The translations under genes were made by a program, and so were the position numbers. This document shows, one piece after another, positions 1-52,968 of a stretch of DNA of 64,000 nt (the first letter of the stretch is position 1; each line of letters opens with the position of its first letter). The DNA is from Paracoccaceae bacterium (GTDB lineage Bacteria; Pseudomonadota; Alphaproteobacteria; Rhodobacterales; Rhodobacteraceae), in assembly GCA_902543185.1 (NCBI GenBank), contig CACBXB010000001.1:62001-126000 (forward strand), given 5' to 3'. Below the pieces are notes generated by a model that was not told the DNA's origin, searched no databases, and saw only the letters and a list, made by a program, of their open reading frames with translations.

Positions 1-172
1 TGTTAACACGGCCACGCATGTAATTAGCGGCAAGCACTTCTTTTATAGTTACTATCACCTGATCGGGATGGGCTCCAATAGTTGAAGAGGCCGCATCTGT
101 CACGCGTTCTGCAAGTAATTTACGAGTTTTTTCTTCGTAACCCTTAATTAAAGTACATTCGATCATTGGCAT
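1..172 (-). CDS. 4-oxalocrotonate tautomerase-like protein (partial, C-terminus beyond window)
   Basis: Fifty-seven codons are visible from an ATG at 172 reading leftward off the window. The protein begins Met-Pro-Met-Ile-Glu, so removal of Met would expose the N-terminal proline that is the catalytic base of the 4-OT/tautomerase superfamily. The later stretch ANYMRGR matches the usual end of the second beta strand in small tautomerases. Family members isomerise unsaturated keto/enol acids in the cytoplasm. It is divergent from the catabolic cluster that starts at 277 and shares its intergenic region, so a role in the same pathway is inferred, not shown. Its full length is unknown because the gene is cut. 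Confidence 0.8.
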   Translation of the reverse strand, partial: MPMIECTLIKGYEEKTRKLLAERVTDAASSTIGAHPDQVIVTIKEVLAANYMRGRVN

Positions 173-185
173 TTTTAATCTCCGC

Positions 186-250
186 TTATGCGCATAAAAT
201 GTTTTCTTATTTTTGTACCACCTTTCATATAATGGAAAGATATTTCCATT
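186..250. promoter_or_regulatory. Divergent control region with two operator-like inverted repeats
   Basis: The roughly 100-bp gap between the tautomerase gene and the hydro-lyase gene contains a perfect 12-bp palindrome at 186-197 (TTATGCGCATAA) and an inverted repeat at 231-250 with 8-bp arms AATGGAAA/TTTCCATT around a 4-base centre. A perfect TATAAT lies at 228-233 and runs into the second repeat, as expected for a -10 box covered by a repressor. No good -35 box is obvious. No regulator gene is visible inside the window, so the binding protein is unknown. Confidence 0.45.
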
Positions 251-276
251 GGATGTTTTTGTGCTAGATTTAACCA

Positions 277-1545
277 ATGACTACACTTGCCCAAAAAATA
301 ATTGCGAATGCCTGTAAAAAATCCGATGTAGGGCCGGGTGAGGTTGTCGTTTGTAAAGTCGATTTAGCTATGATCCATGACTCTGGTGGACCGCGACGAG
401 TTAAACCTATTTTAGAAAAACTTAATCGAAAAGTTTGGGACGCTGAGAAGGTTGTAGTGGTAACAGATCACTATGTACCGATTGAAAGTGAAGAAACACG
501 GGCAATTCACGAACTCACAAAAAAATGGGTTCTTAATCAAGATATACAAAATTTTTATGACCAGCAGGGCATTTGTCACGTGGTTGTTCCAGAAAAAGGG
601 CATCTCAAACCAGGAATGTTTTGCGTAGGGGGCGATAGTCACTCTCCAACAGGAGGCGCATTCGGTGCTTATATGTTTGGTATTGGAGCCACTGAGATGG
701 CTGGCGTTTTAGCAACTGGAGAAATTTGGTTAAAAGTTCCAAAAACCATTTTTATAAAATGGAAAGGAAAACTTAACAATCTTGTAACTGCCAAAGATAT
801 GATGCTCGCAACTTGCCGCAAAATTGGGATGGGTGGCGGACAATATCAAGCTATTCAATATATTGGAGAAGCTATTTATGATCTCTCAGTCCAGGATCGC
901 ATGACTTTATCAAATATGGCTGCAGAACTCGGTGCACAAACTGGATTAATAGCTCCAGACGATAAAACTATTGACTACATAAAGAGCTCTGGTGGATTAG
1001 TTCCTGAAAACTGGAAGAGTTTTCGCTTAGATGAGCCCACTTCTGATGCTAGCGTTAATGAGTTTGATGCATCAACGCTATCACCCCAAATTGCTGCACC
1101 ACACTCACCTGAAAACTCTGAAAATGCAGATGAGTTTGCGAATACAGTTTTTGATGTTGCTTACATTGGTGCCTGTACTGGAGCTAAATATGTAGATTTG
1201 GCAGCTGCTGCTTCAGTTTTAAAAGGACGAAAAATTGCTTCAGGTATCTCTCTTAAAGTAGCGCCCGCTAGCCTAAAGGATGAAAAGCAAGCTTTCGAAG
1301 ATGGAATACTTAAAATTTTGCAAGACGCTGGTGCAGAATTTCTGCCAAATTCTTGTGGCATTTGTGCAGGGTACGGAAAGGACAGGCTAGCAGAAGGACA
1401 GGTATGTCTATCCTCGACCGCAAGAAATTTCCAAGGCCGAATGGGAGCTCCAACTTCGGAGGTTTACCTGGCTTCACCTTACACAGTTGCAGCCTCTGCG
1501 GTTGTCGGAAAAATGACAGATCCTAGAAAGCTAATGGTAAACTAG
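277..1545 (+). CDS. Aconitase-superfamily hydro-lyase large subunit (LeuC/DmdA-like)
   Basis: A 422-aa cytoplasmic [4Fe-4S] hydro-lyase subunit related to LeuC, homoaconitase and the 2,3-dimethylmalate dehydratase subunit DmdA. Visible motifs are GDSHSPTGGAFG near residue 118 and three cluster-ligand cysteines: one in IGACTG (about 300) and two in CGICAGYG (about 360 and 363), followed by a STARNFQGRMG segment that resembles the substrate-binding part of LeuC. The small subunit starts at the next base after the stop codon. No leuA or leuB is nearby and the next genes are a PEP-mutase-type lyase and HyuAB, so leucine synthesis is unlikely. Hydration of an alkylmaleate-like substrate followed by C-C cleavage is the best inference. 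The ATG at 277 has no strong ribosome-binding site. Confidence 0.85.
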   Translation: MTTLAQKIIANACKKSDVGPGEVVVCKVDLAMIHDSGGPRRVKPILEKLNRKVWDAEKVVVVTDHYVPIESEETRAIHELTKKWVLNQDIQNFYDQQGICHVVVPEKGHLKPGMFCVGGDSHSPTGGAFGAYMFGIGATEMAGVLATGEIWLKVPKTIFIKWKGKLNNLVTAKDMMLATCRKIGMGGGQYQAIQYIGEAIYDLSVQDRMTLSNMAAELGAQTGLIAPDDKTIDYIKSSGGLVPENWKSFRLDEPTSDASVNEFDASTLSPQIAAPHSPENSENADEFANTVFDVAYIGACTGAKYVDLAAAASVLKGRKIASGISLKVAPASLKDEKQAFEDGILKILQDAGAEFLPNSCGICAGYGKDRLAEGQVCLSSTARNFQGRMGAPTSEVYLASPYTVAASAVVGKMTDPRKLMVN

Positions 1546-2040
1546 ATGAGTAGACTTTGGCTTTTTGAGGAAACTATAAACACTGACGTTTTGGCGCCTG
1601 GTTTTTATATGAAATCGCCATTGGCCGAACTCTCACAACATTGCCTAGAAGCTGTGCGTCCAGAATTTGCCTCCAAAGTAAAAAAAGGTGATGTATTATT
1701 AGCTGGTGACAATATGGGGGTAGGGTCTTCTAGAGAACAGGCAGCAGAAGTTTTAAAGTTTCTTGGTATATCCTGTATTATTGCTAAAAGTTTTGCAGGT
1801 ATTTTTTATCGCAATGCAATTAATCTGGGTTTGCCTGCTTTTTTGTTGCCAAAAGATAGTCAATTACCCAAAGAATTTGTTGACGGCTCATCCGTAGTAT
1901 TTGATTTTGAAAATAGCATCCTTTTTTTAGAGGGTTCAGGTATCCAAATAAATTTAGACCCTTTACCAGCTTTCTTGCAGGAACTCATAAATGACGGCGG
2001 TTTGGTTCCTCATCTTGAAAAACGTTTTGATGAAAAGTAA
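1546..2040 (+). CDS. Aconitase-superfamily hydro-lyase small subunit (LeuD/DmdB-like)
   Basis: A 164-aa swivel-domain protein. It carries the family signature GDNMGVGSSREQA (about residues 54-66), whose Ser-Arg contact the substrate carboxylate in LeuD, and a following AKSFAGIFYRNAINLGLP stretch that is diagnostic of the small subunit. The start ATG directly abuts the stop of the large subunit, so the two are translationally coupled and must form the heterodimeric enzyme. The length is typical of archaeal-type LeuD and of DmdB rather than the roughly 200-aa proteobacterial LeuD of leucine synthesis, in agreement with a catabolic role. Confidence 0.85.
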   Translation: MSRLWLFEETINTDVLAPGFYMKSPLAELSQHCLEAVRPEFASKVKKGDVLLAGDNMGVGSSREQAAEVLKFLGISCIIAKSFAGIFYRNAINLGLPAFLLPKDSQLPKEFVDGSSVVFDFENSILFLEGSGIQINLDPLPAFLQELINDGGLVPHLEKRFDEK

Positions 2041-2049
2041 GGCCTTATT

Positions 2050-2898
2050 ATGCTCAAATCTATTATTAAAACAGAAACGCTTTTAGCCCCTGGTATATAT
2101 GATGCTCTTTCTGGGCTTATAGCGGAACAATCCGGAGCCCAAGCCGTTTACCTTTCGGGGGCTAGTATAGCATATACTAGGTTTGGAAGATCGGATGTAG
2201 GACTTGTTTCAGTTTCCGAAGTTCATGATACTCTTGCTGCTGTAACTGATAGAATAAAAATTCCTATTATCGTTGATGCAGATACAGGATTTGGTAATGC
2301 CCTAAATGTACAGAGGACAATCCGCAATTTTGAACGGGCCGGTGCCGCAGCTATCCAAATAGAAGACCAATCGTTTCCAAAGCGCTGCGGGCATCTCGAC
2401 GGAAAAGTCTTGATAAAAACAGATGAAATGGTTGGCAAAGTAAAAGCTGCCGTGGATGCTAGAAAGACAAGTGATACATTAATTATCGCAAGAACAGATG
2501 CTCGAGCTGTTGAGGGCCTTCAAGAAGCAATTGATAGAGCGCACACCTACGAGGAAGCAGGAGCAGATATCCTTTTCATAGAAGCGCCCCGTTCAGTTGA
2601 TGAATTGCAAGTAATCCGAAAATCATTCCACCTAAATACCCCTCTTTTAGCAAATATGGTCGAAGGTGGTAAAACACCTGTAAAAACTGCCGATGATTTA
2701 AAAAGTCTAGGTTTTAATATCGTTATATTTCCTGGGGGCGCAGTAAGAGCGGCCACTTTTCAATTGCAAGAGTATTATGCAGGATTATTAGAAAACGGCA
2801 GCAACGCAGAGTTTTCTAAACGGATGCATGATTTTGATAGCCTTAACGCAGTTATAGGAACTCCAGAACTTTTAAGTATAGGGAAAAAATACGAATGA
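2050..2898 (+). CDS. Isocitrate lyase/PEP mutase family C-C lyase (methylisocitrate or dimethylmalate lyase-like)
   Basis: A 282-aa single-domain TIM-barrel enzyme of the PEP mutase/isocitrate lyase superfamily. Visible motifs are DADTGFGN (about 76-83), which binds Mg2+, IEDQ (about 104), and the catalytic loop KRCGH (about 110-114) with its essential Cys, which marks lyases rather than phosphonopyruvate mutases. Close family members are 2-methylisocitrate lyase, 2,3-dimethylmalate lyase and oxaloacetate decarboxylase. Immediately downstream of a hydro-lyase pair, the arrangement copies the dmdA-dmdB-dml module of nicotinate fermenters, in which 2,3-dimethylmalate is split to propionate and pyruvate. 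The exact substrate cannot be read from the sequence. No prpB/prpC partner is seen here. Confidence 0.82.
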   Translation: MLKSIIKTETLLAPGIYDALSGLIAEQSGAQAVYLSGASIAYTRFGRSDVGLVSVSEVHDTLAAVTDRIKIPIIVDADTGFGNALNVQRTIRNFERAGAAAIQIEDQSFPKRCGHLDGKVLIKTDEMVGKVKAAVDARKTSDTLIIARTDARAVEGLQEAIDRAHTYEEAGADILFIEAPRSVDELQVIRKSFHLNTPLLANMVEGGKTPVKTADDLKSLGFNIVIFPGGAVRAATFQLQEYYAGLLENGSNAEFSKRMHDFDSLNAVIGTPELLSIGKKYE

Positions 2899-2925
2899 AA
2901 CCTTTAATAGCTTTTGGGCTTTAAT

Positions 2926-4587
2926 ATGGATGCTGTCACACTTGCTATTCTTAAGGGCAGACTAGAACAAATTGCTGATGAAATGGATGCAACTCTATTT
3001 CGTTCTGCCTTCAACCCTATAATTGCCGAGGCACATGATGCCAGCCACGGTATTTATGATGCCCATACAGGCGAAACTTTAATCCAGGGAAAGTCAGGTT
3101 TGCCCATTTTTGTTGGCGTAATGGCTTTTGCTGTTCAGGCCGTAATCGATAAGGTCTCCTCAGGAGATGACCTTAAAGAGGGCGATGTCTATATATTTAA
3201 TGATCCCTACGACGGGGGTACCCACCTTTCTGATTTTCGCTTGGTTAAACCTATATTCAGAAACGGTGCAGTTTTTTGTTATATAGCCTCTGTGGGTCAC
3301 TGGCACGATGTTGGCGGAAATGTGCCTGGGAACTATAATCCTGAGGCAACTGAAAGTTTCCAAGAAGGAATGTTAATTCCACCTGTCAAATTATTTAAAG
3401 AAGGAAAACTTAATCAAGATATAGTTAACATTCTGTCTGCAAATTCTCGCCTACCTAACTCGCTATATGGAGATTTAAATGGTCAAATAAATGCTCTTGA
3501 TTTGGGCGAGGAGAGATTACATTCGCTTTTAGATGAATATACGGAGGAAAAAATCACAAGTGCATTAAAAGAACTTCGTGAAAGAGCCGAGAAAATGATG
3601 CGGCAACACATAGGTACTTTGCCAAACGAAACAATTTCAGTCGAAGACTATCTTGATAATGACGGTGTTACAGACGATCCTCTTACTCTTGCGATCGACC
3701 TAACCATAAAAGATGATAAAATGACTATTGACTTTAGCAGGTCAAGCAATGCGTGCGCTGGACCAGTCAATATTTCTAAATCAACTACAATTGCCGCAAC
3801 TTATGTAGCTTTAAAGCATATATTCACTGATGTTCCCGCAAATGCCGGAGTATTAAAACCTGTTGAATTTATCATACCTGAAGACAGCTTTCTGAACGTT
3901 CGTGCACCAAAACCGGTTGGTGGTTACACTGAAACAATTTTACGCCTGATAGACGTGATCTTTCAGGCTTTTCAAAATTCAGCAAGCGATAGGGTTAATG
4001 GGTGTGCATATGGAACAATCAATGCATTATCCCTTTCTGGTTATCGTAAAAATGGAAGTAGGTGGGTCATGTTTTCATTCTTCGGCGGTGGTCATGGTGG
4101 TCACCCCGAAGGTGATGGCTTAAATCACGGTAATGCTCCAATTTCTACTGCAACCATACCACCACTTGAAATTCTTGAAGCAGCTTATCCAATTCAATTT
4201 ACCAAGTGGGGTCTCAGACCTAATTCAGGTGGAAAAGGAAAACACAGGGGGGGATTGGGCGCAATTTACGAAATAGAGTTGCTAGAGGAAGAAGCTAACG
4301 CTTTTCTGTTTGGAGAACGCGGAAAATTTGCTCCAAAAGGAGTTATAGAGGGCGAAGAAGGAGCATTGAACCAATTCTATTACGGTTATGAAGCAAATGA
4401 CCCTCCAGAAAAACAATTATCTCCTCCTCTAAAATCAAAAATAACTGGCATTAGCTTAAAAAGAGGTCAGCGTGTAAGGCTTGAGACTCCCGGAGGTGGT
4501 GGATTTGGAAAGAGTTCCGAAAGGCCTTTGGAAAAATTAAATTACGATCTTGAGCAAGGCTACGTGACGGAGACAAAAGATGACTGA
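2926..4587 (+). CDS. Hydantoinase B/oxoprolinase beta-subunit family protein
   Basis: A 553-aa HyuB-family protein starting at ATG 2926 (MDAVTLAILKGRLEQ), the family's usual beginning. An in-frame TTG at 2914 lacks a ribosome-binding site. Conserved landmarks are FNDPYDGGTHLSD near residue 100, the FFGGGHGGH segment near 385, and the C-terminal GGGGFG close to residue 525. HyuB proteins work with HyuA in ATP-dependent hydrolysis of cyclic amides (5-oxoproline, N-methylhydantoin, caprolactam) or in acetone/acetophenone-type carboxylation. The HyuA gene overlaps its last 8 bases, so the two subunits are co-translated. Substrate unknown. Confidence 0.88.
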   Translation: MDAVTLAILKGRLEQIADEMDATLFRSAFNPIIAEAHDASHGIYDAHTGETLIQGKSGLPIFVGVMAFAVQAVIDKVSSGDDLKEGDVYIFNDPYDGGTHLSDFRLVKPIFRNGAVFCYIASVGHWHDVGGNVPGNYNPEATESFQEGMLIPPVKLFKEGKLNQDIVNILSANSRLPNSLYGDLNGQINALDLGEERLHSLLDEYTEEKITSALKELRERAEKMMRQHIGTLPNETISVEDYLDNDGVTDDPLTLAIDLTIKDDKMTIDFSRSSNACAGPVNISKSTTIAATYVALKHIFTDVPANAGVLKPVEFIIPEDSFLNVRAPKPVGGYTETILRLIDVIFQAFQNSASDRVNGCAYGTINALSLSGYRKNGSRWVMFSFFGGGHGGHPEGDGLNHGNAPISTATIPPLEILEAAYPIQFTKWGLRPNSGGKGKHRGGLGAIYEIELLEEEANAFLFGERGKFAPKGVIEGEEGALNQFYYGYEANDPPEKQLSPPLKSKITGISLKRGQRVRLETPGGGGFGKSSERPLEKLNYDLEQGYVTETKDD

Positions 4588-6634
4588 AAAAATCGTCATT
4601 GGGGTAGATGTTGGGGGAACATTTACCGATATATTAGCCTTTGAAGAAAAATCAGGGCGTGTGTCTGTTGCCAAAACTCCTTCTACAAAAGAAGACCAAT
4701 CTAAAGGTTTCTTAGAAGGCATACTTAAAACTACGAATGATTTATCATTAGTGTCTACCATTATTCATGGGACTACAGTAGCGACCAATGCCCTTTTAGA
4801 GAGAAAGGGTGCAAAAACTGGAATTATTACTACTAGAGGTTTTCGTGACGTTTTGGAAATGCGTCGCCGCGATCGCCCAAAAACTTGGGGGCTTTGGGGA
4901 ACATTTACTCCAGTTGTTGAACGAAAAAATAGATTAGAGGTTAGTGAGAGAACTTTAGCAGATGGAACTATCAGAAGTCCAATTGATGAAAAGGAAATTG
5001 AAAATTGCGCAAAAACTTTACTTGAAAATGGATGTTCTTCTGTATGTTTATTTTTCATCAATGGTTATGCTAACCCCGAGAATGAAAGACGAGCTGCAAA
5101 AATTCTTCGATCGGTTTGGCCAAATAAGCATGTCAGTGTAGCAACTGAAATCTTACCCGAAATTAGAGAGTTTGAGCGTTGCTCTACTGCAACCCTGAAC
5201 GCATATTTGCAACCACCTGTAGCTAATTATCTTGAGCGGCTAGAAACGAGAATTTCTGAAGAGAGAAATAAGTCTGAAATTTTAATCGTGCAATCTAATG
5301 GTGGTGTGATGTCTGTTGAAACAGCAAAATCTCTTCCCATTAGAACGGCTCTTTCTGGACCAGCAGCAGGTGTTGTTGCCGCACGTCAGATTGCTAAGGC
5401 TGCGGGTTTTGAAAATATCATAACAGGCGATATGGGTGGAACATCTTTTGATATTTCCTTGATAGCTAACAATCAAAATATGCTTACATCACAGGCCAAT
5501 ATTGACTTTGGAATGACCATAAGAACACCTATGATCGAAATGACTACTATAGGAGCAGGTGGCGGATCTATAGCGCATATAGACTCAACAGGACTTCTTG
5601 AAATTGGTCCCGAATCTGCGGGCTCAGATCCTGGTCCAGCATGCTATGGTTTTGGAAACGATCGACCTACTGTTACCGATGCCAATTTAGTATTGGGAAG
5701 GATTGATGCAAGTAATCCAATTGGCGGAAAACAAAAATCACTGGACTATGATGCAGCAACTCGGGCCGTCGATAATCATATCGCAAAAAAACTGAACCTG
5801 TCTATTCATGACGCAGCCGAAGCAATAATTAAAGTTGCGAATGCAAAAATGAGTGGTGCTATCAGATTAATCTCAATAGAGCGTGGATATGATCCTAAGA
5901 AATTTGCCTTAATGCCTTTCGGAGGTGGAGGAGCTTTGCATGCTGGCGCTCTTATGAAAGATATTGGCCTATCCGCTTCTATAGTACCGCGGTATCCTGG
6001 AGTAAATTCGGCTCTTGGATGCATTATGTCCAATCTGCGTCACGATGAAGTTAGGACATTGAACATTTCTTTGGAAGAATTGGATTGTAAAAATCTGGCA
6101 AAAAATATTGAAGAAATTACAATTGAGTCAAAAAAGGTTATTGATCGGTCTAAAGCACCTTTAATTAAAAGAGAGCGAATTATTGAACTGGATATGTTGT
6201 ATTTAGGGCAAACACATTCAGTTCCAGTATCTGTTTCCGACGATTTAAAAAAATTAACAAGGCAGAATATAGCAAAAGCCTTTTTAGAAAGCTACGCCCG
6301 CGCCTACAGCAGACCACTTGAAGGAATAAGCATCAGGGTTTTAAATCTAAGGGTATCCATGATTGGCGTTCGGCCGGACATAGATATATCTGTTTTTTCT
6401 AAAGGCGAACGGGCAAAAGAAACTAGTGATTGTGTAATCTCAAAACAGAAAATTTATTCGAACGGAGCCTGGCATGAGGCTAAAATTTTCGATCGGTTAC
6501 TTTTGCCTGGTGGCTCCATAATTGCTGGTCCTGCATTGCTTACACAACCTGATGCAACAATTTTTATTGAACCCAAAATGAATGCAAAAGTAGATAGCTA
6601 CGGTAATATAATCTTGAGCGAGGAGGTGTTTTGA
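4580..6634 (+). CDS. Hydantoinase A/oxoprolinase alpha-subunit family protein
   Basis: A 684-aa HyuA-family, ASKHA-fold ATPase subunit. The N-terminal phosphate-binding motif GVDVGGTFTD is at residues 8-17, and a second one, GDMGGTSFD, is at about 283-291, giving the two halves of the actin-like nucleotide site. The hydantoinase/oxoprolinase domain follows with GAGGGSIA and GSDPGPACYG. It couples ATP hydrolysis to ring opening or carboxylation together with HyuB, whose end overlaps its start by 8 bases. Length is normal. Its place between a hydrolyase/lyase module and a flavoprotein is unusual for 5-oxoprolinase and suggests a dedicated catabolic substrate. Confidence 0.88.
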   Translation: MTEKIVIGVDVGGTFTDILAFEEKSGRVSVAKTPSTKEDQSKGFLEGILKTTNDLSLVSTIIHGTTVATNALLERKGAKTGIITTRGFRDVLEMRRRDRPKTWGLWGTFTPVVERKNRLEVSERTLADGTIRSPIDEKEIENCAKTLLENGCSSVCLFFINGYANPENERRAAKILRSVWPNKHVSVATEILPEIREFERCSTATLNAYLQPPVANYLERLETRISEERNKSEILIVQSNGGVMSVETAKSLPIRTALSGPAAGVVAARQIAKAAGFENIITGDMGGTSFDISLIANNQNMLTSQANIDFGMTIRTPMIEMTTIGAGGGSIAHIDSTGLLEIGPESAGSDPGPACYGFGNDRPTVTDANLVLGRIDASNPIGGKQKSLDYDAATRAVDNHIAKKLNLSIHDAAEAIIKVANAKMSGAIRLISIERGYDPKKFALMPFGGGGALHAGALMKDIGLSASIVPRYPGVNSALGCIMSNLRHDEVRTLNISLEELDCKNLAKNIEEITIESKKVIDRSKAPLIKRERIIELDMLYLGQTHSVPVSVSDDLKKLTRQNIAKAFLESYARAYSRPLEGISIRVLNLRVSMIGVRPDIDISVFSKGERAKETSDCVISKQKIYSNGAWHEAKIFDRLLLPGGSIIAGPALLTQPDATIFIEPKMNAKVDSYGNIILSEEVF

Positions 6635-6635
6635 A

Positions 6636-7241
6636 ATGTCATTTGATCCAAAAACGGCGGCCGTTTTAATTGTTGATTTGCAAAATGATTTTCTAGACCC
6701 AAAAGGTGCCTATGGGAGAGCGGGACAAACTAGCTCAGAAATTGCCGCTTTGCCATCTCGTATTTTGCCCCTTTTAAAAGCCATTAGACTGGCAGGAGGA
6801 TGGGTTGTTTCAACACAATTTACGCTTGTACCGGGCAAAGGCGGTGAGCCATTCATATCAAACCACCTTAAGAAACTGAGACCTTTCTTGGGAAAAGGTG
6901 ACTTTTCGCCAGCTTCATGGGGAAATTCACTTGTAGACAACCTACAGCCTGCAGACATAACTGTAGAGAAAATCGCATATTCTGCGTTCTACCAAACGCG
7001 GATGGAATATTCACTATCAAAAGCTGGTATTAAAACATTATTAGTATGTGGCATTGTAACAAATGGTGGCGTAGCATCAACGGTTCGCGATGCACACGTC
7101 AGGGACTTTCATACTATAACCTTGGAAGACGGATGTGCCGCATTTTCAAAAGATACTCATAATTTAGCAATCCAATCACTTAAAACAGTAGGAGAGGTAA
7201 TGAAAATAGCTGATGCTATTTCTCTAATAAACGGAAATTAA
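6636..7241 (+). CDS. Isochorismatase-fold hydrolase lacking the catalytic cysteine
   Basis: A 201-aa isochorismatase-superfamily protein. Asp14 (in IVDLQNDF) and Lys112 (before IAYSAF) of the family triad are present. In the third position, where amidases of this family (nicotinamidase, N-carbamoylsarcosine amidase, RutB) have TNxC, this protein has GIVTNGGV, so Gly145 replaces the nucleophilic Cys. The same change is found in true isochorismatases (EntB, PhzD), which hydrolyse a vinyl ether without a covalent intermediate. An amidase call is therefore not safe. The gene begins one base after hyuA ends, with a strong GAGGAGG ribosome-binding site, so it belongs to the cluster. No siderophore or phenazine genes are near. 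Confidence 0.8.
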   Translation: MSFDPKTAAVLIVDLQNDFLDPKGAYGRAGQTSSEIAALPSRILPLLKAIRLAGGWVVSTQFTLVPGKGGEPFISNHLKKLRPFLGKGDFSPASWGNSLVDNLQPADITVEKIAYSAFYQTRMEYSLSKAGIKTLLVCGIVTNGGVASTVRDAHVRDFHTITLEDGCAAFSKDTHNLAIQSLKTVGEVMKIADAISLINGN

Positions 7242-7243
7242 TT

Positions 7244-8641
7244 TTGACTGACGTGCTAATAAATGACAATTTTTCTGGAGACACAGAAATTGATTGCTTA
7301 ATCATTGGCGGTGGAGCTGCTGGCCTAACTGCCGCTTTGGCAGCTTCGGAGAGTGGTGCGGCAGTTTTAGTAGCTGAACGCGAAAACCGACTTTCCGGAT
7401 CTACAGCTTTATCATCGGGATTAATCCCAGCTGCAGAAACAAATGCTCAAAAAAGACAAAATATAAACGACTCAAAAAAAACTTTCTTTGCAGACATAAT
7501 GGAAAAAAATTGTAACTCTGCTGACCCTAATCATGTTAGTCTTTGCGTTGAAAATATAACTCTTGCCCTCGATTGGCTGGAAGCAGAGCATGGAATTCCA
7601 TTTCATGTTTTAGATGACTTTCTTTATCCAAATCACACTAATTTTAGAATGCATGCTGTCCCAGAAGTTACTGGCGAAGCACTGGTTAATTATTTGGAAA
7701 GAGCTGTTGCAGAACTCGATATTTACGTCAGTTGCAATCTCAAAATAGTAAATTTGGTCAAATCAAATAATGGAAGAATTTTGGGTGCAATTGGAGAGAG
7801 GCCGGACGGTTCAACTGAAGCAATATCGTCAAAAACAATTATCTTGGCTTGTAACGGGTATGGCGGAAATTCTGCATTAATAGCGGAAAATATTCCTGAA
7901 ATGCAAAATGCTATTTATTTTGGGCATGCCGGCAACCAAGGTGAAGCCGTTATTTGGGGTCGACAAATTGATGCCAAAATCGATCATCTATCAGGTTATC
8001 AGGGACATGGATCCGTGGCACATCCACATGGTATATTAGTTACCTGGGCACTGATGATGGAAGGCGGTATTCAAGTAAATACAAACGGCAAAAGGTTTTC
8101 AAATGAGCACAAAGGCTACTCTGAGCAAGCCGTTAACGTTCTTTCACAACCGGAAAAGATAGCTTTTAATATTTTCGATGAAAGGCTATGTGCACTTGGC
8201 CGAAAATTTGAAGATTTCCGTAAGGCAGAAAAAGCCAATGCTATTATCTCTGCAGATACTATAGAAGATTTGGCAAGTAAGCTTAATATAAGCATCGGCC
8301 ATTTATGTGAAACTATGCTAGAAATTGATGCTCTTGCCGAACAGAACGCAGTCGACACATTTGGACGCAATTTTAACTCTAAAAACCGTCTGCAGCCACC
8401 CTACTATGCTGTCAAGGTTACAGGGGCCTTATTTCATACTCAAGGAGGTCTTTTAATAGACAGTCAAGCGCGGGTTATTCAAAAAAATGGTTCATTTATT
8501 CAGGGGCTTTATGCATGTGGTGGTGCTGCTTGTGGTGTCTCTGGACCAGACGTTGCGGGTTACCTCTCAGGCAATGGATTATTGACAGCCATAAGCTTAG
8601 GATATGTTGCGGGAAAATCTATCAAAGCAATTGAATTATAA
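7244..8641 (+). CDS. FAD-binding fumarate reductase/succinate dehydrogenase-type flavoprotein
   Basis: A 465-aa soluble flavoprotein. The N-terminal dinucleotide fold has LIIGGGAAGLTAALAAS (about residues 20-36) and a second FAD contact is the C-terminal LYACGGAACGVSGPD. The middle contains HPHG and FHTQGGL segments like those of fumarate-reductase-family capping and active-site regions. Relatives include tricarballylate dehydrogenase TcuA, urocanate and fumarate reductases and ketosteroid dehydrogenases, so it probably adds or removes hydrogen next to a carboxylate. No heme or Fe-S domain is attached. The start is a TTG at 7244, two bases after the isochorismatase stop, with GGA upstream; no in-frame ATG precedes the FAD motif. 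Last gene of the cluster. Confidence 0.8.
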   Translation: MTDVLINDNFSGDTEIDCLIIGGGAAGLTAALAASESGAAVLVAERENRLSGSTALSSGLIPAAETNAQKRQNINDSKKTFFADIMEKNCNSADPNHVSLCVENITLALDWLEAEHGIPFHVLDDFLYPNHTNFRMHAVPEVTGEALVNYLERAVAELDIYVSCNLKIVNLVKSNNGRILGAIGERPDGSTEAISSKTIILACNGYGGNSALIAENIPEMQNAIYFGHAGNQGEAVIWGRQIDAKIDHLSGYQGHGSVAHPHGILVTWALMMEGGIQVNTNGKRFSNEHKGYSEQAVNVLSQPEKIAFNIFDERLCALGRKFEDFRKAEKANAIISADTIEDLASKLNISIGHLCETMLEIDALAEQNAVDTFGRNFNSKNRLQPPYYAVKVTGALFHTQGGLLIDSQARVIQKNGSFIQGLYACGGAACGVSGPDVAGYLSGNGLLTAISLGYVAGKSIKAIEL

Positions 8642-8743
8642 ATTCCATTATTATAAAACACATTTAATTTAAATTGGCCTTTTTGAATCAACTCTTTTAC
8701 AAGGCGCCCAATCCTACCCATAGCTAGTTTGGAAATAAAAAAT

Positions 8744-10957
8744 ATGGCAGAAATAACTAACCCCGAAATATTGTATACAATTGTAGACGAAGCTCCAGAG
8801 CTAGCAAGTGCTTCACTACTGCCTGTAATACGGTTTTTCTCAAAAGCAGCCGGAATTAATATTGGAAAAAAAGATATCTCCCTTGCAGGCAGAATAATCT
8901 CTGCTTTTCCAGAATACCTCACAGAAAATCAGCAACAACCTGACGACTTAGCTAATCTTGGAAAGATTGTTAAAACTAAAACTGCCAACGTAATAAAGCT
9001 ACCAAATATATCAGCTTCTGTCCCACAGCTTTTATCAGCCATAAGCGAACTACAAAATCAAGGGTATGATCTACCAAATTACCCAGAAGCACCAGAAACA
9101 GACGAAGAAAGAGAAATTCAAGCTCGATATGATGCTATAAAAGGATCTGCTGTAAATCCTGTTTTGCGTGAGGGTAATTCAGATAGGCGAGCAGCAAAAG
9201 CAGTTAAAAACTATGCAATGGCAAACCCTCACTCCATGGGCGCTTGGTCTAGTGAAAGCAAAACCCATGTCTCATCGATGACAGGAAATGATTTTTATTC
9301 AAATGAAAAATCCGCAACTATATCCTCAAGCCAAACAGGAAATGCAAAAATAGAGTTTGTTTCTGAAGATGGGACAGTAAATCTATTGAAAGATAATATT
9401 TATCTGGAAGAAGGTACCGTTGTAGATGCCACTTTCATGAGCTCAAAAGCATTACAGCTCTTCTTAAAAAGACAAATTGCTGAGGCAAAAAGTCAAAATC
9501 TTCTTTTTTCTGTCCATCTTAAGGCAACTATGATGAAAGTTTCTGACCCAATTATATTTGGACACGCCGTCTCATCATTTTTCGAAAAATCTTTTCAAAA
9601 ACACAATGTTGCTCTTGAAAAACTAGGGGCAAATCCAAATTTAGGTCTCGGTGATATTTTGGATAAAATTACTGTTGCTCCAGAAATACTCGAAGACTTT
9701 AAAGTTGAAATGAATGATGGGCCTAAAATGTATATGGTTGATAGTGACCAAGGTATAACAAACCTTCACGTTCCATCGGACGTTATAATAGATGCTTCAA
9801 TGCCCGCACTTATCAGAGCAGGAGGTAAAGGGTGGGGGCCAGATGGAAAGCCTTCAGATACAAAATGTGTTATTCCAGATAACTCCTATGCTCCTGTTTA
9901 TGATGAGGCCATCAAATACTTTAAAGAGACAGGTGCCCTTGATCCGAAAACCTCTGGTGCAGTTGCTAACGTGGGACTAATGGCTCAAAAAGCCGAAGAA
10001 TATGGCTCACACCCTACTACTTTTGAAATCAAGAAGAGTGGAGTGGTGCGCTATGTTCTGGAAAATGGCGAGGTTCTCCATGAGCACGAGGTAAACGATG
10101 GTGACATTTGGAGATCGTCTACCGCAAAAAAGGCACCAATCATCGACTGGATTAATCTTGCCATTACAAGACAAAAAGAAACCGGCTCACAAGCTATATT
10201 TTGGCTGGACAAAAATAGGCCACATGATGCTGAGCTTATTGAATACGTAAAATTTGCGCTTGAAAGCGAAAAGTTAACTGAAAAATTTTCAATTATGGCT
10301 CCACGAGAAGCTACCCGCCTTACGTTGGAAACTATAAGGCTGGGCCAAGATAGTATCGCTATTACAGGTAATGTTCTGAGAGACTATTTAACTGATTTAT
10401 TTCCCATATTGGAGCTAGGCACATCTGCAAAAATGCTTTCTGTTGTAAAATTATTAAGTGGTGGTGGCCTGTTTGAGACTGGCGCTGGTGGGTCAGCACC
10501 CAAGCATGTCCAACAATTAAAGCAAGAAAACCATTTACGATGGGATAGTCTAGGTGAGTTTTGCGCTTTAGGTGAAAGCCTAAACTTTTTTGCTAAAACT
10601 CACGATAATCCAAAAGCCGCTATACTAGGTGCAGCCGTTGAAATTGCTACACAAGAAGTTCTTAATAAAAACAAATCGCCCGCTAGAAAAGTCGGCGAGG
10701 AAGACAATCGGACTAGTCACTTTTACTTTACGCTTTATTGGGCAAAAGCGCTTGCTAAGCAAAACCAAGATTTAGAAATTTCAAGCTATTTTGAACAAAT
10801 AACAAATTCTCTTGAAGAAAATGAAGAAAAAATCATTGAAGAATTAATGGCGCTTCAAGGAGAGGGGGTAGATCTTGGAGGTTATTACCATACGGATCCA
10901 ATCAAAGTCCGAAAAATTATGCGACCAAGCAAAACTTTCAATCAAATTATTCCCTAA
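8744..10957 (+). CDS. icd: Isocitrate dehydrogenase, NADP-dependent, monomeric type
   Basis: A 737-aa protein of the monomeric isocitrate dehydrogenase family (usual length about 740 aa), which oxidatively decarboxylates isocitrate to 2-oxoglutarate with NADP+ in the TCA cycle. It begins MAEITNPEILYTIVDEAPELAS, the expected opening. Conserved segments include SSESKTHVSSM, IDASMPALIRAGGKGWGPDG and GTSAKMLSVVKLLSGGGLFETGAGGSAPKH. The ATG at 8744 is preferred over an in-frame TTG at 8729. It is separated by about 100 bases from the catabolic cluster and reads in the same direction; no terminator is evident between them. Monomeric IDH is common in marine Rhodobacterales. Confidence 0.95.
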   Translation: MAEITNPEILYTIVDEAPELASASLLPVIRFFSKAAGINIGKKDISLAGRIISAFPEYLTENQQQPDDLANLGKIVKTKTANVIKLPNISASVPQLLSAISELQNQGYDLPNYPEAPETDEEREIQARYDAIKGSAVNPVLREGNSDRRAAKAVKNYAMANPHSMGAWSSESKTHVSSMTGNDFYSNEKSATISSSQTGNAKIEFVSEDGTVNLLKDNIYLEEGTVVDATFMSSKALQLFLKRQIAEAKSQNLLFSVHLKATMMKVSDPIIFGHAVSSFFEKSFQKHNVALEKLGANPNLGLGDILDKITVAPEILEDFKVEMNDGPKMYMVDSDQGITNLHVPSDVIIDASMPALIRAGGKGWGPDGKPSDTKCVIPDNSYAPVYDEAIKYFKETGALDPKTSGAVANVGLMAQKAEEYGSHPTTFEIKKSGVVRYVLENGEVLHEHEVNDGDIWRSSTAKKAPIIDWINLAITRQKETGSQAIFWLDKNRPHDAELIEYVKFALESEKLTEKFSIMAPREATRLTLETIRLGQDSIAITGNVLRDYLTDLFPILELGTSAKMLSVVKLLSGGGLFETGAGGSAPKHVQQLKQENHLRWDSLGEFCALGESLNFFAKTHDNPKAAILGAAVEIATQEVLNKNKSPARKVGEEDNRTSHFYFTLYWAKALAKQNQDLEISSYFEQITNSLEENEEKIIEELMALQGEGVDLGGYYHTDPIKVRKIMRPSKTFNQIIP

Positions 10958-52701: not shown

Positions 52702-52854
52702 TTAACGATAACTTTCTATTATAATCATCCTGATACTGTCTCTTATTGCGCTGGGCAAGTCTTACACAAAAGTAAATTTTATTATGTTTTTCCAAAATAA
52801 AAAAATCCCTTTTGTTTCTTGACCTTAATAAAATTTATGATAATCCATCAAGAA

Positions 52855-52968
52855 CCTCGGGGAGCCGAAAATTGGCTGAGATGCGCAAGCGAACCCGTAG
52901 AACCTGAACCGGATAACGCCGGCGGAGGGAAGGATAAACTTCTTTAAGTTTGAACTTGCTCTCCCCGA
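52855..52968 (+). promoter_or_regulatory. TPP riboswitch (THI element) with translational expression platform
   Basis: The conserved THI-box core is visible: CGGGGAGCC near 52858, GGCTGAGATG at 52874-52883, ACCTGAACCGGATAA at 52902-52916 and GCGGAGGGAAGG at 52922-52933. It lies 50 bases before thiB, a thiamine importer gene. Downstream, CTCCCCGA (52961-52968) is exactly complementary to the 5' strand TCGGGGAG (52857-52864), and TCTCC at 52960-52964 can alternatively pair with the ribosome-binding site GGAGA. With TPP bound the 5' strand is held in P1, leaving the C-rich segment to block the ribosome site, which fits repression by thiamine pyrophosphate. Confidence 0.93.

Follow-up and report, generated by a model that had tools for sequence, protein, structure and literature searches.

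The operon and its gene content

At the left end of the window, by which we mean the whole stretch of 64,000 nucleotides of Paracoccaceae DNA that was analysed, seven packed plus-strand open reading frames (A, B, L, HyuB, HyuA, I and F) lie beside a divergent tautomerase gene, T, and the question they raise is which compound such a set would break down. A first-pass annotation had described this gene set, and the reading frames and families match its description. A (277..1545) is the large subunit of an aconitase/homoaconitase-type hydro-lyase, like homoaconitase and DmdA, by the Pfam Aconitase model and NCBIfam subfamily models. B (1546..2040) is a hydro-lyase small subunit of the LeuD/DmdB family by the NCBIfam model LEUD_arch, and L (2050..2898) is a lyase of the isocitrate lyase/PEP mutase superfamily by profile scores, motifs and a tree. 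HyuB (2926..4587) is a hydantoinase B/oxoprolinase-family subunit (Pfam Hydantoinase_B, 557 bits); comparison with relatives favours its ATG start at 2926, a TTG at 2914 also being possible. HyuA (4580..6634) matches ATP-dependent hydantoinase/oxoprolinase subunits in the PDB, I (6636..7241) is an isochorismatase-fold hydrolase by Pfam, and F (7244..8641) is an FAD_binding_2 flavoprotein with the flavocytochrome c/fumarate reductase fold, a dehydrogenase/reductase by profile and structure matches. Because the gaps from A to F are so small (0, 9, 15, -8, 1 and 2 bp), these genes are likely a single transcription unit, and no tRNA or Rfam feature was found inside it. T (2..172, minus strand; Pfam Tautomerase) starts at 172 and runs past the window's left edge, so that only its N-terminal part is present; the full protein has 185 residues in the window's own genome. 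Relatives are tautomerase-SnoaL fusions; in the one at locus L033 the tautomerase domain comes first, and the SnoaL-like domain behind it scored 27.3 bits with SnoaL_2 against a cut-off of 27.

Recurrence and module replacement

The first-pass annotation had named co-occurrence in other genomes as a check, and the linkage was indeed found. The gene set recurs in alpha- and betaproteobacteria. Among 337 sampled genomes of the class, I was present in 22 and L in 42, and L was present in 21 of the 22 I-bearing genomes, in 17 of these within 10 kb. Plasmid records contributed 30 with I and 38 with L at the thresholds used. The locus search kept the best 80 of at least 578 loci. A chance, decayed or one-off cluster was ruled out, because both the genes and their order are found again in distant genomes.

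We counted the families around L at 119 loci, a set that excludes nine loci of the window's genus and in which a genome may count twice if two collections contain it. HyuAB was present at 66 of these loci, 63 of them with I. A PuuE-type protein was present at eight (seven with a Cys amidase), a dihydropyrimidinase/allantoinase-type (hydantoinase-type) protein at four, AtuA at six and an amidase at four; a RutA/SfnG-like monooxygenase variant also exists. For the AtuA and amidase variants, imide opening is not obvious. No locus of the 119 held two ring-opening modules at the thresholds used, an exclusivity that depends on threshold because distant amidohydrolase/amidase relatives (28-41%) lie near HyuAB at L038, L086, L042 and L140. 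The 31 loci with no module include 10 with a hydratase, and some of their contigs are short. F was missing near 13 of the 66 HyuAB loci, and some loci also have genes of the hydantoin racemase family and for tautomerases. The hydratase is replaceable as well, being A/B, a LeuCD-type pair or MmgE/PrpD. Since alternative families replace HyuAB and A/B around L, the outline first suggested for the cluster (ring opening, nitrogen loss, alkylmaleate hydration and cleavage) is partly supported.

The hydro-lyase pair and the lyase

A exceeded the cut-offs of two NCBIfam subfamily models, hacA_fam (443 bits, cut-off 386) and IPMI_arch (412, cut-off 410), as did B that of LEUD_arch (148, cut-off 109). 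Both fell below the NCBIfam equivalog cut-offs for the leucine enzymes, homoaconitase and AcnD; for homoaconitase the scores were 396 against 550 bits for A, and 147 against 230, 119 against 230 and 138 against 229 bits for B. We propose that A/B is an alkylmaleate hydratase. Homoaconitate carries the same propionate arm as the substrate proposed below. Lys23 of B aligns with the Arg of the YLRT loop of M. jannaschii homoaconitase (structures 2pkp, 3vba and 1v7l), and the position is basic (Lys or Arg) in 76 of 82 aligned rows, with other residues in six. The accessible part of PMC7308503 gives this loop of the homoaconitase small subunit a role in substrate recognition; the accessible part of PMC8184944 says nothing about the loop residue.

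L carries the catalytic motif KRCGH, the subfamily signature AYTRxGR, and EGG where PrpB has EFG. The rows used for residue conservation leave out six loci of the window's genus (L016-L021) and two isochorismatase rows below 45% identity, and for the other genes rows were removed if they fell below the identity limits, were too short or contained internal stops. KRCGH was present in 121 of 123 L rows and KKCGH in two, and the metal-binding acids (both Asp of DxD and the ED pair) were present in all 123. Arg44 was found in 106 and Arg47 in 110 of these rows. The pair was absent from all 18 L paralogues compared, where a single Arg occurred at position 44 in four and at position 47 in two. Judged by alignment, these basic residues (Lys23 in B, the two Arg in L) suggest that the substrate carries an additional carboxylate.

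The earlier view that L is distinct from 2-methylisocitrate lyases was borne out by two results. L scored 297 bits with the PrpB model TIGR02317, below the cut-off of 354, and in the tree PrpB and MICL fell in a separate group (support 96/98) from the 72 operon lyases. The latter formed one group (support 94/48, the second value being weak), and they had been chosen by similarity to the window's L, which favours their unity. The motif EGGKTP is common to L and the petal death protein, a lyase that acts broadly on 2-alkylmalates, although in the tree this protein has a long branch and falls outside the group of L.

Proposed ring opening and amide hydrolysis, and the flavoprotein

HyuA matched N-methylhydantoinase (410 bits) and 5-oxoprolinase (356) in the PDB, as well as acetophenone carboxylase (276 and 181) and acetone carboxylase (230 and 227). 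The best NCBIfam models for HyuAB were those of caprolactamase (the beta subunit for HyuB), under cut-off. On these scores HyuA appears nearer to the hydantoinase than to the carboxylases. Hydrolysis is favoured over carboxylation for HyuAB, because L loci without HyuAB can carry other cyclic amide/imide families. The first-pass annotation had kept carboxylase chemistry as an alternative, under which HyuAB would be an ATP-dependent enzyme of the acetone/acetophenone type and the operon would assimilate a ketone-like compound. The HyuAB family does include such carboxylases, and HyuA matches them at 181-276 bits, but it is far closer to the hydantoinase and oxoprolinase, and hydrolases take the place of HyuAB at other A-B-L loci; we consider this alternative very unlikely.

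I has Gly145 at the position of the catalytic Cys and retains Asp14 and Lys112. Among 75 family rows, the window included, Cys was present in none, Asp in all and Lys in at least 71. A sporadic loss in the window's genome was therefore rejected, and the absence of Cys, previously taken to weaken the amide step, is instead an invariant trait of the family. EntB and PhzD are among the weaker matches of I, and these true isochorismatases also lack the catalytic Cys. F shares its fold and FAD domain with TcuA (tricarballylate dehydrogenase) and the flavocytochrome c fumarate reductases, but the invariant Tyr292 and Tyr440 of F replace two active-site Arg of the fumarate reductases, which we take to be their catalytic Arg.

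Linkage to glutaryl-CoA genes

Five lineages carry a glutaryl-CoA dehydrogenase (GCDH) gene within the operon or next to it, accompanied in two of them by a succinate-glutarate-type CoA-transferase. This link was noticed post hoc at L109 and then counted across the 337-genome sample. The L109 protein scored 572-594 bits to the nearest named solved GCDH, with the next class at 234, and 648 bits to 4w9u, which is named only as an acyl-CoA dehydrogenase. The other cases are L028 and L203 (one genus), L065, three genomes of one genus that includes Tistrella mobilis, and B. plantarii, whose plasmid p1 carries imidase-like genes, an amidase, A, B, F, L, ETF, GCDH and CoA-transferase within 15 kb. 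The p1 GCDH (L217) scored 735 bits against 237 for the next class, and with the succinate-glutarate model the p1 CoA-transferase reached 542 bits. This and a second linked CoA-transferase (535 bits) had a clear best model (next models 318 and 293), under the curated cut-off of 750; the CoA-transferases at L067 and L069 reached only 251 and 260 bits.

GCDH was not nearby at 115 of the 119 L loci and is usually encoded elsewhere in the genome; in genome G000 it lies on contig C3. L or I was present in 43 genomes; gene surroundings were examined in 41, and the remaining two (G181 and G279) have GCDH on another contig. With at most five candidates scored per genome, no GCDH among the matches listed reached threshold in five of the 42 L genomes (G049, G123, G151, G226 and G255), of which G255 is rated complete. 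Among 20 further operon-linked neighbours, mostly unrelated genes, no propionate-handling gene was recognised by Pfam. About 65 neighbour proteins were scanned and the gene names in 12 annotated plasmid stretches read, and none of these neighbours could be recognised as a tetrapyrrole gene. The pyruvate first suggested as a cleavage product is retained as likely, and the operon-linked glutaryl-CoA genes make glutarate likelier than propionate as the second product.

A proposed pathway and its alternatives

Hematinic acid, 2-methyl-3-(2-carboxyethyl)maleimide, arises from oxidised heme, bilins and chlorophylls. Our preferred reading, held tentatively and at somewhat less than an even chance, is that the operon degrades a propionate-armed dialkylmaleimide-type five-membered imide, most likely hematinic acid and its dihydro form, to pyruvate and glutarate. 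We infer the substrate, every reaction and their order. F would adjust the redox state of the ring from succinimide to maleimide, and HyuAB would open the imide using ATP. I would free ammonia from the half-amide without a Cys nucleophile; plausibly, the neighbouring carboxylate of the maleamate acts as nucleophile while Asp14 and Lys112 transfer protons. A/B would hydrate the resulting methyl-homoaconitate, L would split methyl-homoisocitrate into pyruvate and glutarate, and glutarate would enter metabolism through the CoA-transferase and GCDH.

We weighed this reading against others that draw on the same genes. A different ring, whether a six-membered imide, lactam, hydantoin or enamide, could lead to the same acids with I as an enamine/vinyl-type hydrolase. 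The Gly of I at a position where EntB and PhzD also lack Cys fits this proposal, as do the hydantoin racemase-family and tautomerase genes at some loci; against it, the Cys amidase of the PuuE variant performs the matching job, and the natural substrate of A/B would be a maleate-type double bond between carboxylates, probably best supplied by an opened five-membered imide. We regard it as unlikely. Alkylmaleimides that lack the propionate arm, such as dimethyl-, ethylmethyl- or vinylmethylmaleimide, would follow the same outline and yield pyruvate with propionate or butyrate, on the model of nicotinate breakdown in E. barkeri; they seem quite unlikely substrates. A/B and L do resemble DmdAB and Dml in role, and L shares EGGKTP with the petal death protein, though not its place in the tree. 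Against this reading stand the glutarate-serving genes found with the operon in some lineages, the lack of recognised propionate-handling genes among the 20 neighbours, and the additional carboxylate suggested by Lys23 and the Arg pair.

That leucine-biosynthesis or methylcitrate-cycle genes simply adjoin here by chance is extremely unlikely. A, B and L are members of the superfamilies concerned, related A/B pairs are publicly annotated leuC/leuD, and genome G000 (75% complete) yielded a single lyase-family gene; however, the HyuAB and I linkage recurs widely, and the missed LeuC, LeuD and PrpB equivalog cut-offs, together with the position of L apart from PrpB in the tree, tell against A, B and L as leucine or PrpB enzymes.

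As far as we found, the operon is widespread but undescribed. Among the matches listed from open-access full text, there was no report of a pathway with this gene set, nor of bacteria using hematinic acid or alkylmaleimides. A "dimethylmalate lyase" in one supplementary legend of PMC9804861, in the part available, belongs to a methylcitrate cluster and not to the present operon. The bolder claim, that this is the first genetic route for bacterial growth on hematinic acid, by way of methyl-homoaconitate and a carboxylate-assisted, Cys-free amidase, is in our judgement doubtful; if true, it would connect the decay of tetrapyrroles with central metabolism in soil, in lakes and in the sea. The operon is common in environmental proteobacteria, also on plasmids, and its genes are annotated piecemeal and misleadingly as leuCD, 'cysteine hydrolase' and 'oxaloacetate decarboxylase'. 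Once their class of substrate were defined, such gene sets would be explained and could serve as a marker for turnover of nitrogen-containing ring compounds, and I, as a proposed Cys-free amide hydrolase, has a mechanism that allows direct testing.

Comparison with known systems

In the accessible part of PMC9304392, nicotinate use in Aspergillus nidulans includes a cyclic imidase related to PuuE, HxnM, which opens a cyclic imide to a half-amide, followed by the amidase HxnN. The present pathway would likewise open an imide and then hydrolyse the amide, and PuuE relatives occur in variant operons; the A. nidulans route, as given in that part, differs in its six-membered imide and in having no hydratase-lyase tail. 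The methylcitrate cycle (PrpD/AcnD, PrpB) also hydrates a methylated aconitate and cleaves the product to pyruvate and a dicarboxylate, and PrpD-family proteins replace A/B at some L loci. L differs from PrpB in its EGG and AYTRxGR motifs and in falling into a group of its own, and the proposed product, glutarate, is one carbon longer than succinate. The N-methylhydantoin and caprolactam routes share an ATP-dependent HyuAB followed by an isochorismatase-fold hydrolase, which in the N-methylhydantoin route is N-carbamoylsarcosine amidase; here, I lacks the catalytic Cys and the downstream half is the cleavage of a carboxylic acid. In the nicotinate tail of E. barkeri an amidohydrolase (enamidase) opens the ring, and the hydro-lyase pair DmdAB and the lyase Dml finish the route. 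The likeness, judged by role, lies in ring opening, a maleate-type hydro-lyase pair and an isocitrate lyase-superfamily lyase, whereas the present operon, with no B12 mutase or methylitaconate isomerase seen there, has an ATP-dependent HyuAB, a Cys-less I, a flavoprotein and glutaryl-CoA genes.

Results

Seven plus-strand genes, A to F, with gaps of 0, 9, 15, -8, 1 and 2 bp between them, and a divergently oriented gene of the tautomerase family occupy the first 8.6 kb of the window. Family scans agree on an aconitase-superfamily hydro-lyase pair (A/B), a lyase of the isocitrate lyase/PEP mutase superfamily (L), HyuB and HyuA, an isochorismatase-fold protein (I) and an FAD_binding_2 flavoprotein (F). 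The tautomerase gene is cut by the left window edge; the full gene in the window's own genome (2.0 Mb, 75% complete) encodes 185 aa, and its relative at locus L033 is a tautomerase-SnoaL fusion. The closest named relatives among the matches listed were Rhodobacteraceae bacterium AG-390-A18 and AG-343-P20, with 98% identity in L.

Several other features were also recorded. F is followed by a gene of about 742 aa (8729-10957, plus strand), found in the same place in most loci of the genus, which we take to resemble monomeric NADP-dependent isocitrate dehydrogenase. Left of the window, beside the tautomerase gene (L016, 1-7618), sequence starts suggest urate/purine degradation genes: apparent OHCU decarboxylase, hydroxyisourate hydrolase, xanthine dehydrogenase and PuuE-like genes. 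Equal-size ORFs lie at this position in three genomes (G001, G008 and G015), and because the neighbors differ in G014 and G006, the purine set beside the tautomerase gene seems to be a chance junction. The sole Rfam match in the window at the gathering threshold was a TPP riboswitch (52848-52947, plus strand).

From a contig search for relatives of L, we kept the best 80 of at least 578 confirmed relatives. Among these 80, the named ones were mostly Alphaproteobacteria and Burkholderiales, with genera including Achromobacter, Variovorax, Polaromonas, Limnohabitans, Stappia, Roseibium and Phaeobacter. The window's group and many other Alphaproteobacteria have the order A-B-L-HyuB-HyuA-I-F and many Burkholderiales A-B-HyuB-HyuA-I-F-L, while the roseobacter order is tautomerase gene-HyuB-HyuA-I-L-F with a divergent alternative hydratase pair. 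The first-pass annotation had staked its reading on these genes occurring together in other genomes, and they do. At the thresholds used, I was present in 22 and L in 42 of 337 genomes of the class sample; L occurred in 21 of the 22 genomes with I versus 21 of the 315 others (Fisher p-value = 9e-21), and in 17 of the 21 genomes carrying both, the two genes lay within 10 kb.

We surveyed the modules around L at 119 loci, the nine loci of the window's genus being excluded. HyuAB was present at 66 loci, 63 of them with I, 53 with F (F was not near the other 13) and 57 with a hydratase. Elsewhere its place was taken by other proteins: paired PuuE/NodB-type proteins at 8 of the 119 loci (7 with a cysteine hydrolase resembling N-carbamoylsarcosine amidase), a dihydropyrimidinase/allantoinase-type amidohydrolase at 4, an amidase at 4, and AtuA (DUF1446) at 6 (L056, L062, L067, L071, L095 and L103), four of which add DUF4387 and an SDR. 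Cyclic imidases are akin to PuuE (PMC9304392). At 31 loci none of these modules was found, and at the thresholds used two modules occurred together at 0 of 119, with distant amidohydrolase or amidase relatives (28-41% identity) near HyuAB in L038, L086, L042 and L140. On Variovorax sp. RA8 plasmid 2 (L219), the front end pairs a RutA/SfnG-like flavin monooxygenase with a flavin reductase and adds an isochorismatase-fold protein in which, by eye, alanine occupies the cysteine position. The hydratase role is likewise filled variously by A/B, a LeuCD-type pair or MmgE/PrpD. Because both front end and hydratase are displaced around one lyase, we infer a fixed reaction chain in which a cyclic amide or imide is opened and a maleate-like acid is hydrated and then cleaved.

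Some loci show further arrangements. AtuA precedes A-B-F-L, occupying the place that HyuAB has in other loci, and in L219 the monooxygenase set, L and the LeuCD-type pair lie between transposase genes as a compact variant. Asp/Glu/hydantoin racemase-family genes accompany the operon in L214, L221 and L033-L035 (two in tandem in L214 and L221), as do SnoaL or tautomerase genes in L221 and L033-L035; cis-trans isomerase or racemase steps are possible roles for these companions.

The hydro-lyase and lyase have distinctive residues. Lys23 of B aligns with the arginine of YLRT in Methanocaldococcus jannaschii homoaconitase, where the isopropylmalate counterpart of that organism has YLVY, and lysine or arginine occupies this position in 76 of 82 rows. 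According to PMC7308503, which cites Jeyakanthan et al. 2010, this small-subunit loop governs substrate choice in the family. L carries the motif KRCGH (121 of 123 rows; KKCGH in 2) and has EGG at the EFG position of PrpB. Arg44 and Arg47 are present in 106 and 110 of the 123 rows, respectively, and occur together in 0 of 18 paralogues from related genomes, with the first alone in four and the second in two. In a tree, 72 thinned operon lyases formed one group (94/48, the second value weak) apart from PrpB and MICL (96/98), a unity that is partly built in because the rows were chosen by similarity.

In I, Asp14 and Lys112 are retained and Gly145 stands at the cysteine position (TNGG in 74 of 75 rows, TNGA in one; 53 of 53 TNGG in an earlier, smaller set), so public names such as "cysteine hydrolase" are misleading. 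F retains His255 and His398, and has tyrosine at the fumarate reductase arginine positions (Tyr292 in 75 of 75 rows and Tyr440 in 73 of 73 gap-free rows). Ketosteroid dehydrogenases act on carbonyl-activated rings. By analogy, the tyrosine pair in place of arginine suggests a ring of this kind as the substrate of F, not a free dicarboxylate, and we infer that F acts on the imide.

We also found glutaryl-CoA dehydrogenase (GCDH) genes near L. At L109 a clear GCDH gene is divergent from A-B-L; its product matches the closest proteins named GCDH at 572-594 bits, the next class at 234, and 4w9u, which is named just acyl-CoA dehydrogenase, at 648. L028 and L203, from one genus, have the same arrangement, and in L065 the gene lies downstream of F; GCDH was absent beside L at 115 of 119 loci. 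In three genomes of one genus, including Tistrella mobilis, the operon itself contains GCDH, placed together with a CoA-transferase between I and the hydratase, and each of the three carries a second GCDH elsewhere. Linkage was found in 2 of 12 annotated plasmid stretches, those of Tistrella and of Burkholderia plantarii plasmid p1, which is typed conjugative. On p1, two PuuE-type genes and a cysteine amidase are divergent from the remaining operon, which comprises GntR, A, B, F, L, a porin, ETF subunits, GCDH (735 bits) and a CoA-transferase. Against the succinate-glutarate model, the CoA-transferases of L143 (a Tistrella relative) and B. plantarii scored 535 and 542 bits, missing the cut-off of 750, with next-best models at 293 and 318.

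Of the 43 genomes in the class sample that have L or I, five, from two genera, carry GCDH within 10 kb, where about 0.2 would be expected by chance. At one GCDH copy per 4.5 Mb, two linked cases have a probability of 1.6e-2 and five of 1.5e-6; at two copies the values are 5.6e-2 and 4e-5, the fairer count being two independent genera for a lead spotted post hoc. Two GCDH copies were found in 5 of the 43 genomes versus 3 of 294 others (p-value = 0.001), three of the five being one genus. GCDH was present anywhere in 37 of 42 genomes with L versus 151 of 295 others, with genome size a confounder. In the window's own genome it lies on contig C3 (73% identity to that of L109), and three CoA-transferase III genes show 30-35% identity. 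In G255, a genome rated complete that has L and I, no GCDH was found at the threshold used.

Discussion

An L-type lyase yields glutarate only if the substrate has a CH2CH2COOH arm beside the cleaved bond. Homoaconitate carries this arm. Given in addition the methyl group that ends up in pyruvate when a PrpB-like lyase acts, it becomes methyl-homoaconitate, which is hematinic acid (2-methyl-3-(2-carboxyethyl)maleimide) after ring opening and nitrogen removal. In our proposed route, HyuAB and ATP would open the hematinic imide, or its dihydro form by way of F, and I would release ammonia. Dialkylmaleamic acids hydrolyse very fast through their own carboxyl group, so a fold supplying proton transfer alone could suffice in I. 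Hydrolysis by the substrate's own carboxyl would also explain why no I was found in the loci of the hydantoinase-type variant in the 119-locus survey. A/B would then add water, L would split the product into pyruvate and glutarate, and CoA-transferase and GCDH would convert glutarate to crotonyl-CoA.

The first-pass annotation had outlined opening of a dialkylmaleimide- or lactam-like ring, nitrogen loss, hydration and cleavage to pyruvate and an acid; module exchange partly supports this chain, now sharpened, and the tetrapyrrole source it speculated on is still a best guess. Every enzyme family in the operon is already known, and we found no published description of this combination in the open-access full text searched. 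In its presumed working, the operon couples a tail of the methylcitrate type to a front end that opens imides.
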